From NCBI GenBank assembly GCA_017449215.1, contig JAFSJY010000006.1, forward strand, positions 1 to 64,000: a stretch of 64,000 nucleotides of DNA, read 5' to 3'. Below, in pieces: positions 4,311 to 10,568 of this stretch (within the stretch, counting starts at the first letter, position 1; each line of letters starts with the position of its first letter). The stretch comes from Acholeplasmatales bacterium (GTDB taxonomy: Bacteria > Bacillota_I > Bacilli_A > Acholeplasmatales > Anaeroplasmataceae). The notes under the pieces are model-generated. The model did no database searches. It saw nothing but the letters and a program-made list of their open reading frames with translations, and was not told where the DNA came from. The position numbers were made by a program, and so were the translations under genes.

Positions 4311-4333
4311 AATAAAAAGCACCAAAAGGTGCT
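4311..4333 (-). terminator. Terminator of the metK operon
   Basis: AGCACC TTTT GGTGCT stem followed on the minus strand by TTTTATTTTTTT, eight bases after the metK stop. Confidence 0.9.
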
Positions 4334-4340
4334 ATTTCAT

Positions 4341-5492
4341 TTACTTTAATAATGCCTTTAATTCCTCAACCTTATCTAAATGCTCCCAAGGTAGGTCGAT
4401 ATCAGTTCTACCAAAATGACCATAGGCAGCAGTTTGCTTATAGATAGGTCTCTTTAAATTTAATGTAGTGATAATTCCTTTTGGAGTTAAATTAAATAAT
4501 TCTCTAACCTTATTTGAAATTAATTCCTCACTAACCTTATTAGTACCAAAAGTATCTACTAATACTGATGTAGGCTCTGCAACACCAATTGCATAAGATA
4601 ATTGGATTTGAACCTTCTTAGCAAGACCTGCCGCTACAATATTCTTTGCAATATATCTTGCCATATAGCAAGCTGATCTATCTACCTTAGATGGGTCCTT
4701 ACCACTAAATGCTCCTCCACCATGGCATGCTGCACCACCATAAGTATCAACAATAATCTTTCTACCTGTTAAGCCTGAATCTCCTTGAGGACCACCAACA
4801 ACGAATCTACCTGTTGGGTTAATTAAATATTTAGTATCAGCCATAATTAAATTAGCTGGAATAACCTCATCAATAACATACTTCTTAACGTCCTTAGCGA
4901 TTTGGTCTAATGTGATTTCAGGAGCGTGCTGAGTAGAAATTAATACTGTATCAACACCAACAATCTTATCATCATCATATAAAATAGTTACCTGAGTTTT
5001 TCCATCTGGTCTTAAATAAGGTAATGTACCATTCTTTCTTACATCAGCTAATCTCTTAGCTAGCTTATGAGCTAATGTAATAGCAAGTGGCATATATTCC
5101 TCTGTTTCATCAGTTGCGTAACCAAACATAATACCTTGGTCACCAGCACCCTGCTCATGGTCACTAGATTCATCAACACCCATTGCGATATCAGGAGATT
5201 GTGGGTCAATTGCACATAATACTGCTAAATTATCGGCATCAAAGCCAAATTTACCTCTATTATAGCCAATTTCTTTTACAGTATCTCTTACGATAGTTTG
5301 TACATCTACATAATGGCTAGTTGTAATTTCACCGAATACCATTACCATACCTGTTGTACAAATAGTTTCGCATGCTACTCTACCATTTGGGTCATGCTTT
5401 AAAATATCATCTAATATAGCATCACTGATTTGATCCGCAATCTTATCAGGATGTCCTTCTGTTACACTTTCACTTGTAAAATATCTTTTCAT
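4341..5492 (-). CDS. metK: S-adenosylmethionine synthetase
   Basis: Makes SAM from ATP and methionine in the cytoplasm. The 383-residue protein is full length. Signatures include [16 protein letters not shown] near residue 14, the GAGDQG hexapeptide in the middle and the phosphate-binding [16 protein letters not shown] near residue 260. It is the last gene of a closely packed unit priA-fmt-HD-GYP-like-TSCPD-metK headed by a SAM-sensing riboswitch about 5 kb upstream, so its own product probably shuts the operon down. The 10-base gap to the preceding gene holds the AGAGG site. Confidence 0.97.
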
Positions 5493-5502
5493 TTTCCTAC
5501 CT

Positions 5503-5745
5503 CTAAATTCTTTCCTTTAATGCCTTAGCTAATTGATCTGCACATGATGTTCTCTTAACACCACATGTGTTACCCTCTAATATTTCAATTACCTTTTTAG
5601 CATCCATACCTTCTACTAGCTTACTAATAGCCTTTAAATTACCTGGACAGCCTCTTTCAAAAGAGACATTATGAACCTTGCCATCATTATCAATATCAAA
5701 ATTGATTTTTACTGCGCATGTTCCACTTGTTTTATATTCGTACAT
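5503..5745 (-). CDS. TSCPD domain protein
   Basis: An 80-residue protein matching the small TSCPD family (the C-terminal cysteine domain seen in B12-dependent ribonucleotide reductase, here stand-alone as in TIGR03905). Recognisable are the N-terminal [15 protein letters not shown] strand, FERGCPGN, and the Cys-rich end [16 protein letters not shown]. The biochemical role of stand-alone members is not established; a redox or metal role is guessed from the paired cysteines. Four bases separate it from the preceding gene and ten from metK, so it is co-transcribed with both. Confidence 0.85.
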
Positions 5746-5748
5746 AAT

Positions 5749-7089
5749 CTACTCCTCATCATAAATTGCTTCAAAGTCTGCATCAAATCTTGAGAATCTA
5801 TCAAATACTAATGAATCAAAATATACCTTAAAGCTCTTTTCTAATGTAGCCATAGTATTTTTATGATTATAAGCCTTCTTATATCTTCTTACACTTCTCA
5901 TAGAAATATATATTTCACAGATAAGAATAATTTGATCATTAATATTAGTTAAAGAATTTCTTGTTCTCTTAATATAATCATCATCTGATGCATTATCAAG
6001 CACATGTCTTAAAATATCTTCACTTTTTCTTTTTAATTCTAATCTTGCAATTAATTTTTCACCTAAATCAGTATTCTTTCTAACAGAATTAAATCTATCA
6101 TCAATACTCATTTCATCATTAATTCCAAGCTCAAATTTTGAATTAACAATTAATTTAGTATAATCAGCTAGCTCATCAATCTCCTCAAGCTTTAAGCTTA
6201 GTAGGGATGCTAGCTTCTTAACCATACCAGTTAAAATCATATTTTCGTGTAAATCATCCTCTGTTACCTCTATATTAGGTAAAGTGATTGCGAAAATATT
6301 TTGAACTGATTTAATATAATCCTCTTGAACCTTACGTCTTTTAGCCTGTTCCTTTTTTCTTTCCTCTTGCATATAATTAGTCATCGCTACATAAATATAT
6401 AGAATTAGCATATATGCAACAAGTAAGATAGTTCTAACTAAAATATCTCTAAGTGCTGTACCTGTTAAAATAGTTACGAATGTATCCCATATATTTGAAT
6501 TTTGAGCAAGGCTTACTAAGCTATATGTTACAGTAAAATGTAATATAGTAATTAATACCAATACCCAAATAAAAATATTTTTAAGCATCTTCTTATTCTG
6601 ATAAAAGGCACACATTAATAATGAAATATATATTAATATATATCCAGCTTCTGATAAGTAATTAGAGCCATCATCACCAGATTCACCATATTTTAATTTA
6701 ATATAAACTAATACGGATGATAAGAACATATAAAATGCCGATACATACATCGCCATTGTTTGTGATAAATTATCGTTTGGTCCCTTATTTATTAGCTTAC
6801 CTAAGAAATAGTTAACTAGCATTGTTACAGGGAGTAATAATATAGTTAATAAAATATTTGATGTATTTGATGGATTACCTAATGTAATAATAGTGAAGAT
6901 TAATGTATACAATAGGTTTACAACAAATACGATATTTTTAATAACGATATTTTTACGGTATAAAACCATATTATCATCTGTTATATCAATACCATTTTCA
7001 AAACCAAATTTATCCTGGAAAAATGTTGATTTTTCAAATCTTTTAGTTATTCTTTTTTTCAAATTCTTTAAAGAACCTTTTAAAGACAA
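5749..7089 (-). CDS. Membrane protein with degenerate HD-GYP-like domain
   Basis: About 446 residues. Residues roughly 45-235 form six or so hydrophobic segments, followed by a cytoplasmic half that aligns in layout with HD-GYP cyclic-di-GMP phosphodiesterases, most clearly the end (RRYKKAYN..., then KVYFDSLVFDRF...FEAI, the usual FDP-x-L/V-x-x-F ending). The catalytic signatures are gone: the HDIGK site reads TKLIVNSK and no HHE-WDG-GYP is present. It is therefore probably a sensor or scaffold rather than an enzyme. The start is uncertain: TTG 7089 has GGTGGTGA five bases upstream, while the longer frame starts at TTG 7104. A TATAAT at about 7112 suggests an extra internal promoter. Confidence 0.7.
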   Translation of the reverse strand: MSLKGSLKNLKKRITKRFEKSTFFQDKFGFENGIDITDDNMVLYRKNIVIKNIVFVVNLLYTLIFTIITLGNPSNTSNILLTILLLPVTMLVNYFLGKLINKGPNDNLSQTMAMYVSAFYMFLSSVLVYIKLKYGESGDDGSNYLSEAGYILIYISLLMCAFYQNKKMLKNIFIWVLVLITILHFTVTYSLVSLAQNSNIWDTFVTILTGTALRDILVRTILLVAYMLILYIYVAMTNYMQEERKKEQAKRRKVQEDYIKSVQNIFAITLPNIEVTEDDLHENMILTGMVKKLASLLSLKLEEIDELADYTKLIVNSKFELGINDEMSIDDRFNSVRKNTDLGEKLIARLELKRKSEDILRHVLDNASDDDYIKRTRNSLTNINDQIILICEIYISMRSVRRYKKAYNHKNTMATLEKSFKVYFDSLVFDRFSRFDADFEAIYDEE

Positions 7090-7141
7090 GAAAATCACCA
7101 CCAATCCTTATGATTATAACATAATTATATGTCTTTTTCTA

Positions 7142-8056
7142 CTACTCTAGAACCTGTCCTACAGTAAATAGCTTTTGTCCATTAGAGAATTCCTTACCTG
7201 TAATAATTTTCTTACCAGGCATTTGTACTAATTCAAGGCTTATTGCACCATCCTTAGTTTTAATTAATATTTCCTTTTTAATAGAAAGGATAGTACCAGG
7301 TAATTCATTACCTGAATACTCTCTTATACTTGCCTTATATACCTTTAAATTAATATTAGAAACATTAATATAAGCACCAGGAGTCATTGCTAGACCTCTA
7401 ATTTGGTTAACAATATTTTTACTTGTATTATTTAATTTGATTAATTCCTCTTCCTTTTCAATATTCTTTGAATATGTGGATTTAGAATCATCCTGAGGAA
7501 TACCTAAATTCTTATCACTTACAATATCCTCTATTGTATTTAATAATAAATCTCTACCTATAACAGAAAGCTTTTCAAATAAAGTAGTTGAATTATCATC
7601 ATCCTCTATTTGATATTCTGCCATAGAATAAATCTTACCAGTATCTAAGCCTTTTGCCATTTCCATAATAGTAACACCAGTTTTAGTATCACCATTAATT
7701 AAGCATCTTTGAATTGGTGCTCCACCTCTATGAAGTGGTAATAAAGATCCATGAACATTTATTTTATATTTAAATAAATTTAATATTTTAGAAGGAATAT
7801 ATTGTCCATAGGCAGCTGATACTAATACATCAGCCTTTGCTTCTAAAATATCAGAATAGGCATTTGCTATTTTTTCTGGTTGAATTAGCTTTAATCCTAA
7901 TTCAGTTGCTAAATTAGCCACTGGTGTAGGAATTAATGCACCCTTTTTCTTTTCTCTATTAGGCTGACTAATAACTAAAGCTATTTCATATTTATCATTT
8001 AAACCAGATAAAACATTACATGCAAATTCTGGAGTTCCCATAAATACTATTCTCAT
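7142..8056 (-). CDS. fmt: Methionyl-tRNA formyltransferase
   Basis: Formylates initiator Met-tRNA using 10-formyltetrahydrofolate. The 304-residue protein has the expected N-terminal MRIVFMGTPEFA, the SAAYGQYIPSKIL and NVHGSLLPLHRGGAPIQ catalytic region with the formyl-transferase Asn-His, TGVTIMEMAKGLDTG, and a C-terminal tRNA-binding domain. It follows priA directly (adjacent coordinates) with AAGGAGG five bases before the ATG, the normal priA-fmt order, though def and rsmB that often accompany them are missing. It is inside the SAM-riboswitch operon, linking formylmethionine and SAM supply. Confidence 0.96.
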   Translation of the reverse strand: MRIVFMGTPEFACNVLSGLNDKYEIALVISQPNREKKKGALIPTPVANLATELGLKLIQPEKIANAYSDILEAKADVLVSAAYGQYIPSKILNLFKYKINVHGSLLPLHRGGAPIQRCLINGDTKTGVTIMEMAKGLDTGKIYSMAEYQIEDDDNSTTLFEKLSVIGRDLLLNTIEDIVSDKNLGIPQDDSKSTYSKNIEKEEELIKLNNTSKNIVNQIRGLAMTPGAYINVSNINLKVYKASIREYSGNELPGTILSIKKEILIKTKDGAISLELVQMPGKKIITGKEFSNGQKLFTVGQVLE

Positions 8057-10390
8057 TTACATCCTCCTTATATCTAGGCTTATATCCTTATTCGCTTGAT
8101 AGATTGGATATAAGTCCTTTATTTTATCTAATACCTTATCCTCTAAAGCTTGAATTTGAATAATATATCTATAAATATCACATTTCTTAAATGGATAAGC
8201 AGTTACAGGACCTAATATTAAGGAATCCTTAGCTACATGCCTTAATCCCTCTGCGATATTATAAGCTTCAATATTAGCCTTATCCTTATCTAATGATTTA
8301 ATCATTATTTCAATACATTCAGAAAATGGAGGCATTTTAGTCATTTCTCTATTATTAATTTCATAATTATAATATGATTCATAATTATGATTCTTAACAC
8401 TATTAATTACGAAATGATTTGGATTATATGATTGAATAATAACATTACCAGATTTATCACTTCTTCCAGCTCTACCTGAAACCTGCTCTAAAAGGTTAAA
8501 TGTAACCTCATTAGAATCATATAAAGGATAATGTAATGACAAATCAGCATTTATAACACCAACTAATGTTACATCCTTAAAATCTAATCCCTTTGTAATC
8601 ATTTGAGTACCAACTATAATATCAGCCTCATGATTCTTAAATACCTTATAATAATTTTCATAATCACTCATTTTAGATATAGAATCTAAATCAACCTTTA
8701 ATATTCTTGCCTCAGGTATTAAGGTTTGTACCTCAGAAACAATCTTTTCAGTGCCACTACCTAAATATCTAATCTTATCTGAATTACAGCTAGGGCACTT
8801 AATGACATTAGGTGTTATATAGCCACAATGATGACATACTAATGAATTAATATTTTCATGGTAGGTTAATGCAATATCGCAATGAGGACATTTGATAACA
8901 GTACCACAACTTCTACACATAACGAATTTAGAATAGCCTCTTCTATTTATAAATAGAATTGATTGTTCATTATTCTTATAGCACTTTTTTAATTCTTCCT
9001 GTAATTTAATTGATAATACAGATTTATTACCATTAGCTAATTCTTCTCTTAAATCAACTAATTCAACCTTAGGTAAAGGCTTAGAATTAGCTCTATTTTT
9101 TAATTCTAATAGCTCATATATGCCATTAGTGGCATAATAATAATCTGATACCTTAGGTGTTGCAGTACCTAAAATTAAAGGAATATTATAATGCTTAGCA
9201 CGAATTGTTGCGATTTCAACTGCGTTATATTTAGGATTATTAGTTTGAATATAGCTATTTTCATGAGCCTCATCTATAATGATTATTCCTAAATTCTTAA
9301 TTGGAGCGAATATAGCTGACCTAGCTCCAACTACTATTTTTACATTACCAGATATTATTCTTTTCCATTCCTCATATTTTTGTTTAACAGTAAGTCTAGA
9401 ATGTAGAATTGCAATATCATTTTTAAATCTAGAATATAAAATAGATGTAATTTGTGGAGTTAATGATATTTCAGGTACAAGCATCAATGCTGTTTTATCT
9501 GTATTTAATAAATTATTAATCCATCTAATATATATTTCAGTCTTACCTGAACCTGTAATACCATGTAATAAATATGTTTTATATTCATTATAATCTATAC
9601 TTTCATATACACGCTGTTGATCTGGATTTAATACAATATCATTATTATATACAATATTATTCTTATATGAATTATCTTCCTCTAATATCTTATCATAGAT
9701 AGATATAACCTTTTCCTCTACCATCTCATTAATAAGAGGTCTTTTATATCCCATATCAGATATTAATGTTTCTAATTCTATATCTATACCCATTTCATCT
9801 AAATAATTAAATAATTCATTTTTCTTCTTTGATCTAGAATAATAATTATCTAAATTTAAATGGACCATCTTAATAATATTTTCATCCTTTTTACCCTTTA
9901 ATTTAGTATCTAGATATAAAATATTATTTTCTACGGCCTTATATATTATTTTTTGATTATCATCATCTAATGAATCAATTACTATTTCCTTTTTTCTTCC
10001 AAATAATAATTTTAATTCATCATCTAAATTAGATTTATCATATGGTATAGCAACTCTTTGATATTTAATTTTTAAAGCACTAGGTATCATCGCATCTAGT
10101 ACAACTGAATAGAATGAGAAATTATTTATTGCAATATATTTAGCAATATCTATCAATTCTTCATTTAAGACAGGCTTAACATCTAACGTATCTATAATTT
10201 CCTTTAAATTATTTTTATATTCTGTTTCTTCCTTAATTTTAATAACATATCCAGTTCTTTTTAAATTACCAAATGGTACTATTACTCTAAAGCCTGGCTT
10301 TAATATATTAATTAATTTTGAGGGAATAATATAATCAAATGTTTTATTAACTTGCTTATTCTTAATATCTATTATTATTTCAGCATACAA
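8057..10390 (-). CDS. priA: Primosomal protein N' (replication restart helicase)
   Basis: 3'-5' helicase that reloads the replisome at stalled forks. The 777-residue product begins at TTG 10390, chosen because AGAGGAGG lies eight bases upstream. Motifs in order: N-terminal 3'-DNA-binding domain, Walker A GITGSGKTEIY near residue 280, DEAH (IIIDEAHENSY), GTATPKVSDYY, then the zinc-binding cluster CRSCGTVIKCPHC ... CHHCG ... CPSC, and VTLVGVINADLSLHYP plus SGRAGRSDKSG in the second RecA lobe. First gene after the SAM-sensing leader. Confidence 0.96.
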   Translation of the reverse strand: MYAEIIIDIKNKQVNKTFDYIIPSKLINILKPGFRVIVPFGNLKRTGYVIKIKEETEYKNNLKEIIDTLDVKPVLNEELIDIAKYIAINNFSFYSVVLDAMIPSALKIKYQRVAIPYDKSNLDDELKLLFGRKKEIVIDSLDDDNQKIIYKAVENNILYLDTKLKGKKDENIIKMVHLNLDNYYSRSKKKNELFNYLDEMGIDIELETLISDMGYKRPLINEMVEEKVISIYDKILEEDNSYKNNIVYNNDIVLNPDQQRVYESIDYNEYKTYLLHGITGSGKTEIYIRWINNLLNTDKTALMLVPEISLTPQITSILYSRFKNDIAILHSRLTVKQKYEEWKRIISGNVKIVVGARSAIFAPIKNLGIIIIDEAHENSYIQTNNPKYNAVEIATIRAKHYNIPLILGTATPKVSDYYYATNGIYELLELKNRANSKPLPKVELVDLREELANGNKSVLSIKLQEELKKCYKNNEQSILFINRRGYSKFVMCRSCGTVIKCPHCDIALTYHENINSLVCHHCGYITPNVIKCPSCNSDKIRYLGSGTEKIVSEVQTLIPEARILKVDLDSISKMSDYENYYKVFKNHEADIIVGTQMITKGLDFKDVTLVGVINADLSLHYPLYDSNEVTFNLLEQVSGRAGRSDKSGNVIIQSYNPNHFVINSVKNHNYESYYNYEINNREMTKMPPFSECIEIMIKSLDKDKANIEAYNIAEGLRHVAKDSLILGPVTAYPFKKCDIYRYIIQIQALEDKVLDKIKDLYPIYQANKDISLDIRRM

Positions 10391-10411
10391 TTATATTACC
10401 TCCTCTACAAA

Positions 10412-10437
10412 ATAAAAAAGCCAAATTAATGGCTTTT
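10412..10437 (-). terminator. Terminator of the SAM riboswitch expression platform
   Basis: AAAAGCCA/TGGCTTTT stem (430-437 with 416-423 of the 10 kb block) followed on the minus strand by TTTTTTATT, before the priA ribosome site. Its first strand GCCAT can also pair with the aptamer's closing strand AUGGC, the expected antiterminator. Confidence 0.85.
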
Positions 10438-10540
10438 AATTTTTAATTAATGCCATCAAACAAGTTTTAGCACCTTGCATATTGCAGGTTGCTTGGTAGT
10501 CATTGAGCTTGTCTCTCGTACCATCTTTATAGCAATTAAA
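10438..10540 (-). promoter_or_regulatory. SAM-I-type riboswitch (short, no P4)
   Basis: On the minus strand the leader shows the SAM-I core: P1 GCUAU (10529-10533) with AUGGC (10452-10456); P2 GGUA-CGAG...CUC-AAUGAC-UACC with a kink-turn-like UGA/CGA; the conserved AGCAACC ... AAGGUGCUAAAA forming P3; and a pseudoknot of the P2 loop ACAAG with CUUGU. The helix P4 normally following the pseudoknot is missing, as in some SAM-I/IV variants. A terminator follows, so bound SAM should stop transcription of priA-fmt-...-metK. Family assignment is by eye. Confidence 0.8.
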
Positions 10541-10568
10541 TTATACAATTTTTATTATTAATTTACAA
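10540..10568 (-). promoter_or_regulatory. Promoter of the SAM-riboswitch operon
   Basis: -35 TTGTAA (10563-10568), 17-base spacer, -10 TATAAT (10540-10545). Predicted start at about 10533, exactly at the first base of riboswitch helix P1. Confidence 0.8.

Follow-up and report, generated by a model that had tools for sequence, protein, structure and literature searches.

Riboswitches of the SAM-I (S-box) class, RF00162 in Rfam, are characterized by a P1 stem, a P2 with a K-turn, a P3 core, a loop-tail pseudoknot, a set of pocket nucleotides, a terminator/antiterminator platform and an association with metK, and P4 ranks among the helices with strong covariation in that Rfam family (PMC8250186). 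Several related classes have been described. SAM-IV (RF00634) has a SAM-I-like core and the pseudoknot PK-1 without P4, and additionally carries P5 and PK-2 (PMC6890682). SAM-I/IV (RF01725), which belongs to the same clan and has the same core, possesses P4 and is devoid of PK-1 and of the P2 internal loop (PMC6890682, PMC2864571). Finally, the spermidine riboswitches (PMC10853860) are SAM-I-derived, terminator-based OFF switches.

Here we describe a leader found in a 64,000-nucleotide stretch of the genome of an Acholeplasmatales bacterium (contig JAFSJY010000006.1, hereafter the window), which shares all the SAM-I traits listed above except P4. Contrary to SAM-I, this form has a 3-nt linker in the place of the P4 stem-loop, and its operon begins with priA and fmt. 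We consider it very probable that the leader is a P4-less variant of SAM-I acting as a SAM-OFF transcription attenuator. Its fold, the loss of P4, the terminator, the alternative pairing, the operon order and the recurrence in relatives are all established computationally.

The RF00162 model aligns over its full length to positions 10535-10450 of the reverse strand. It scores 56.1 bits there, above the gathering score of 44.4, with an E-value of 2.9e-10 within the window, and this is the sole SAM-I match in the 2.05-Mb genome. The compact SAM-I-type riboswitch without P4 that the initial annotation had proposed is confirmed, with only 2 nt of the window filling the P4 stretch of the model in the Infernal alignment. 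From 5' to 3', the leader consists of the promoter, P1, the K-turned P2 with CAAG in its loop, P3, CUUG, UUU, a single G and the P1 3' strand AUGGCA, and the parts of the aptamer are the following:

10450-10535, reverse strand: P4-less SAM-I aptamer (RF00162, 56.1 bits; P4-less covariance model R1, whose training set includes the window, 93.9 bits)
10529-10534, reverse strand: P1 5' strand UGCUAU, partner of 10456-10451 (sequence, folding; inner pairs in 97-100% of 182 unique aptamers)
10494-10523, reverse strand: P2 with K-turn and loop ACAAG (Rfam alignment, covariation)
10508-10511, reverse strand: pseudoknot 5' strand CAAG in loop L2 (sequence; CAAG/CUUG in 175 of 182 relatives, covarying CUGG/CCAG in 2)
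10469-10493, reverse strand: P3 with the SAM-pocket core AGCAACC / AAGGUGCU (Rfam alignment; invariant columns)
10461-10464, reverse strand: pseudoknot 3' strand CUUG (Rfam alignment, relatives, covariation)
10458-10460, reverse strand: 3-nt linker UUU in the place of P4 (Infernal alignment; relatives)
10451-10456, reverse strand: P1 3' strand AUGGCA, also the antiterminator strand (folding; covariation with the terminator arm)

The K-turned P2, the P3 core (AGCAACC/GGUGCU) and the pseudoknot from L2 to J3/4, with 4 bp between CAAG (10511-10508) and CUUG (10464-10461), can all be read from the sequence as previously claimed, and the tail does run directly into P1. The SAM-I feature that is absent is the P4 stem of the four-stem junction. 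P4 is lost as a unit, with three linking nucleotides left; in T. tengcongensis numbering, excision of the P4 hairpin as a unit would presumably leave just about that number. A hidden P4 is excluded, as the succession of pseudoknot strand, 3 nt and P1 leaves no space for it. Given its predicted SAM-I-like mode of action, its SAM-I-like score and its missing P4, the RNA is filed as a P4-less variant of SAM-I.

Since SAM-IV likewise does without P4 (PMC6890682), it might appear a suitable class for this RNA. However, searching the genome with the RF00634 model yields nothing even at E=10, the K-turn of SAM-I is retained, and neither P5 nor PK-2 is apparent, with the terminator placed directly after P1 and L3 being a short loop. 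As for SAM-I/IV, RF01725 reaches 33.9 bits, below its cut-off of 41.1, and the window form is the reverse of that class, with P4 absent and PK-1 present. The comparison of the three models that had been suggested as a check therefore places only SAM-I above its cut-off, and we regard membership in SAM-IV or SAM-I/IV instead of SAM-I as practically negligible.

The nucleotides located within 5 A of SAM (6-8, 11-12, 44-47, 57-59 and 87, according to PMC6890682) follow the SAM-I consensus and are near-invariant among relatives, with the exception in the window of nt 8, which is A instead of C at a position that Rfam gives in lower case (less conserved). These pocket letters, together with the metK association, point to SAM as the probable ligand. 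Two features count against this assignment: the loss of a helix covarying so strongly in the Rfam family could weaken binding, and the deviating nt 8 lies near the ligand. This last nucleotide would also fit a variant that has given up SAM and senses a different ligand, for example spermidine or SAH, a shift that known SAM-I variants have made, and some P4-less relatives precede genes without a known link to SAM. The spermidine-sensing variants, which reject SAM, are altered at SAM-contacting nucleotides of J1/2 and of the P3 internal loop (PMC10853860), whereas the window aptamer keeps the canonical equivalents of G11, A12, C44-C47 and G56-C59. Moreover, metK is present in the operon and in many relatives, and the genes downstream are priA, fmt and metK rather than polyamine genes, making a change of ligand improbable.

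A survey of 100 genomes yielded 119 SAM-I loci besides the window's own, which were classified by type. Type A, P4-less and with a CAAG/CUUG-type pseudoknot, comprises 71 loci in 59 genomes; type B, canonical and with a P4 hairpin, 37 loci. The remaining 12 loci form type C, which also lacks P4. Of the 52 SAM-I loci in the family to which the window belongs, 51 are of the P4-less type A, mostly heading a priA-fmt-X-TSCPD-metK operon. The type-A loci, together with P4-less loci from public contigs, provide 182 unique aptamers. The linker between the pseudoknot and G86 measures 3 nt in 182 of 182 parsed aptamers, a length that both the parser and the search pattern demand, and one 2-nt and one 5-nt linker are found among five unparsed relatives. 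P1 nucleotides 4-7 pair with 87-90 in 97-100% of the 182. An alignment of 32 P4-less sequences has standard pairs in 92.8% of its pair cells and two-sided changes at 14 pairs, a value as high as this being reached by 0 of 500 shuffles, and slid controls giving 31-40%. The model R1 gives 65-95 bits to the tested type-A loci, 52-56 to type C and 26-44 to canonical P4-bearing loci, so that the three forms separate cleanly.

The expression platform surrounding the aptamer is composed of these elements:

10540-10568, reverse strand: predicted sigma-70-type promoter TTGTAA-17-TATAAT, its -10 element ending 4 nt before P1 nt 1 (scan; consensus match)
10416-10437, reverse strand: intrinsic terminator AAAAGCCA-UUAAUU-UGGCUUUU, followed by a U-rich tail (scan, folding)
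10399-10406, reverse strand: Shine-Dalgarno AGAGGAGG, spaced 8 nt from the UUG start codon at 10390 (sequence)

The distance from promoter to P1 is exactly 4 nt in 26 of 51 family leaders and 5 or 6 nt in 14 more. With the promoter ending 4-6 nt before P1 in 40 of 51, the RNA probably starts within P1, which supports, as a prediction, the earlier placement of the first base of P1 at the start of transcription. The terminator hairpin (10437-10416) lies between the aptamer and the Shine-Dalgarno, and the proposed alternative pairing of the P1 3' strand with it is recovered by scan and folding. In ViennaRNA, P1 plus terminator has -28.1 kcal/mol and the antiterminator using the P1 3' strand -26.6 kcal/mol, this antiterminator being the optimal fold when the nascent RNA is 110-116 nt long. 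A terminator is in reach in 162 of the 182 unique P4-less aptamers. The complementarity between the P1 3' strand and the 5' arm of the terminator averages 6.7 bp, compared with 4.8 for shuffled arms. The variable nt 91 and its partner in the terminator arm are paired in 64% of cases, where independence would give 44%; none of 5000 shuffles does as well, which is not a strict probability because the sequences are related.

These elements suggest the following course of events. RNA polymerase would start at the base of P1. When SAM is bound, the core formed by P1, the K-turned P2, P3 and the loop-tail pseudoknot would retain the P1 3' strand, allowing the 10437-10416 hairpin to form and to end transcription before priA. 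When SAM is scarce, the P1 3' strand would instead pair with the 5' arm of the terminator, and the polymerase would enter priA and fmt, reaching X, TSCPD and metK by read-through. SAM-OFF logic is standard for SAM-I, and we infer OFF switching, as well as the degree of metK control, for this locus. Counted in favor of the SAM-OFF reading are the family members, which mostly head the same operon, and the presence of the same aptamer form directly before metK homologues in other taxa.

The absence of P4, plus the existence of two lineages with the operon and no detected switch, would also be expected of a decaying, non-functional SAM-I remnant. However, this form is common to 51 of 52 SAM-I loci of the family and spread across phyla, and both the compensatory changes in the 32-sequence alignment and the covariation of nt 91 with the terminator arm contradict decay, leaving the remnant reading highly improbable.

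In other P4-less leaders, the terminator is followed by a stretch resembling CUCUUUAUGG, which is reverse-complementary to the P1 5' strand and J1/2. It was seen between the terminator and the Shine-Dalgarno in L176, L175, L153, L275, L279 and G031:C13, among others, and a complement of this kind of at least 8 nt is present in 23% of 99 leaders, compared with 0.9% in shuffles. It is possibly an anti-aptamer element in the read-through RNA. By eye, no such stretch is apparent after the terminator of the window leader.

Downstream of the switch, the operon contains:

8057-10390, reverse strand: priA, which opens the operon and encodes the replication restart helicase (TIGR00595, 572 bits, cut-off 230)
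7142-8056, reverse strand: fmt, methionyl-tRNA formyltransferase (TIGR00460, 266 bits, cut-off 201.5)
7113-7123, reverse strand: conserved extended -10 promoter TATGTTATAAT, putative, within the operon before gene X (motif match, relatives)
5749-7104, reverse strand: gene X (c5), with a membrane N-terminus and what looks like a degenerate HD-GYP-like C-terminus (profile of relatives)
5503-5745, reverse strand: TSCPD-domain protein (TIGR03905, 112 bits, cut-off 67.7)
4341-5492, reverse strand: metK, SAM synthetase (TIGR01034, 603 bits, cut-off 309)
4318-4333, reverse strand: intrinsic terminator after metK (scan)

The switch heads priA-fmt-X-TSCPD-metK as initially described: this order recurs across the family, the genes are separated by short gaps, and a terminator could not be detected inside the operon. 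The accompanying claim that SAM controls the whole operon stands for priA and fmt, at its head, and is not fully supported for metK. Of 35 relatives, 22 carry the extended -10 motif TATGNTAWAAT in the fmt-X gap and 33 the looser TGNTANANT, against expectations of 0.5% (by dinucleotide shuffling) and 8%, respectively; the stringent form precedes no other operon gene, including fmt, TSCPD and metK. With such a conserved promoter, X-TSCPD-metK can probably escape the switch, and metK would be supplied independently of SAM. This loosens the metK link and counts against the SAM-OFF reading in its full extent, as do genus g4 and G014, whose operons have no detected switch. The same RNA could then mainly tune priA and fmt, with metK, X and TSCPD driven chiefly, and largely SAM-free, by the internal promoter, a plausible reading that we nevertheless lean against. 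A promoter match is silent on strength, and the short gaps without a detected internal terminator favor read-through. Furthermore, sister families carry P4-bearing SAM-I directly before metK and the P4-less form precedes metK homologues elsewhere, which makes metK the natural target. Under the SAM-OFF attenuator that we prefer, X-TSCPD-metK would thus probably have a second promoter downstream of the switch, priA and fmt would be the secure targets, and the control of metK would be partial or conditional. This extended -10 between fmt and X also occurs in L294, L295 and L299, three relatives in which the search detected no SAM riboswitch.

Gene X, whose true start is probably a later UUG according to a comparison of the gap sequences, has no library match above cut-off, and the window protein none in Pfam. 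A 12-member profile of X reaches the HD-GYP structure 4mcw with E=3.3e-5, in a match confined to the C-terminal part. HD_5 is weakly matched in 6 of the 12 members. X appears to encode a membrane protein that ends in a degenerate HD-GYP-like region, and the signalling role formerly assigned to it is a guess.

Upstream of the switch, a THF riboswitch (12105-12014, reverse strand, 64.9 bits) precedes a folT-like ECF S component. A 22-bp gap separates the end of this gene from the SAM-switch promoter and, with no terminator detected in between, folate-controlled transcripts may enter the SAM switch.

Regarding the history of the family, the sister families bear P4-bearing SAM-I directly before metK. 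In the MetK tree, the earliest branch of the family (G032) retains a switch with P4, located at TSCPD-metK, and its priA-fmt genes lie on a separate contig; the next branch (g2) has a P4-less switch at priA. Gene X adjoined metK before the family arose. In genus g4, the operon has no detected switch, and folT stands directly before priA in three genomes; in G014, the operon is present without a switch match in a short upstream stretch. This distribution is consistent with a single event in which the P4-less form took the place of the P4-bearing one and was later lost in some lineages, on a tree with mixed branch support.

Outside the family, the exact type-A pattern occurs in at least 118 stretches of genome contigs. 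Among the matches listed, record titles name Bacillota, Elusimicrobiota, Spirochaetes, Synergistetes and Gastranaerophilales, although some metagenome-bin titles may be wrong. Within the phylum, the P4-less model finds matches in 42 of 245 sampled genomes at 1e-7, with canonical or type C loci among the weaker matches. The exact pattern is also present in 14 viral contigs and one named Ruminococcus phage. These viral aptamers (L268-L281; L282, 3001-3084, in Ruminococcus phage NatCom_28274) often precede a protein of about 100 aa without assigned function. When the first downstream genes are grouped by single linkage, which is approximate, MetK homologues number 16, N-formylglutamate-amidohydrolase-like proteins 8 and a cluster of unknown-function proteins 26, many of about 100 aa. 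When proteins encoded after other P4-less switches were scanned with Pfam, nine small ones gave no match, the other three being an N-formylglutamate amidohydrolase, MetK and an ECF S component. Among plasmids, the sole match to the P4-less form is a Mycoplasmopsis cynos record of 987 kb that carries a plasmid label (NZ_LR214986.1), where the aptamer (L283, 2498-2587, R1 83.4 bits) lies before a DUF4116 protein.

No report of a P4-less SAM-I was found in the literature searched, which did not extend to the main SAM-clan and SAM-IV papers, and we hold with moderate confidence that the form is new. With evenly divided confidence, we propose a broader view: within the SAM clan, P4-less SAM-I would constitute a sub-architecture that has so far gone undescribed and has spread horizontally, reduced to the common core plus PK-1, present in several gut-bacterial phyla and their phages, and controlling metK, N-formylglutamate-amidohydrolase-like genes and several protein families of unknown function of about 100 aa; in the window's family, it would have replaced the ordinary P4-bearing switch of metK as this gene became part of the priA-fmt operon. 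Such a natural and widespread form would define a smaller aptamer core, would allow the purpose of P4 to be tested in an order where both forms exist, and would expose a regulon including a replication-restart helicase, initiator-tRNA formylation and small proteins of unknown function. The internal promoter is, in turn, a warning that operon order alone is insufficient for inferring SAM control of metK.

The type C loci (L093, L099, L102, L119, L125, L126, L128, L129, L132, L139, L141 and L143) precede a three-gene operon for a methionine-type ABC transporter. In them, C-G replaces the G43-C59 pair next to the SAM pocket (UACCAACC/GGUGGUA), and the pseudoknot has 5 bp (UAUAG/CUAUA); their ligand specificity might differ. 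In G082, a genome of the same order as the window, a RF01725 SAM-I/IV match just over the cut-off (L290, 2803-2699, reverse strand, 42.5 bits) is located between X and metK.
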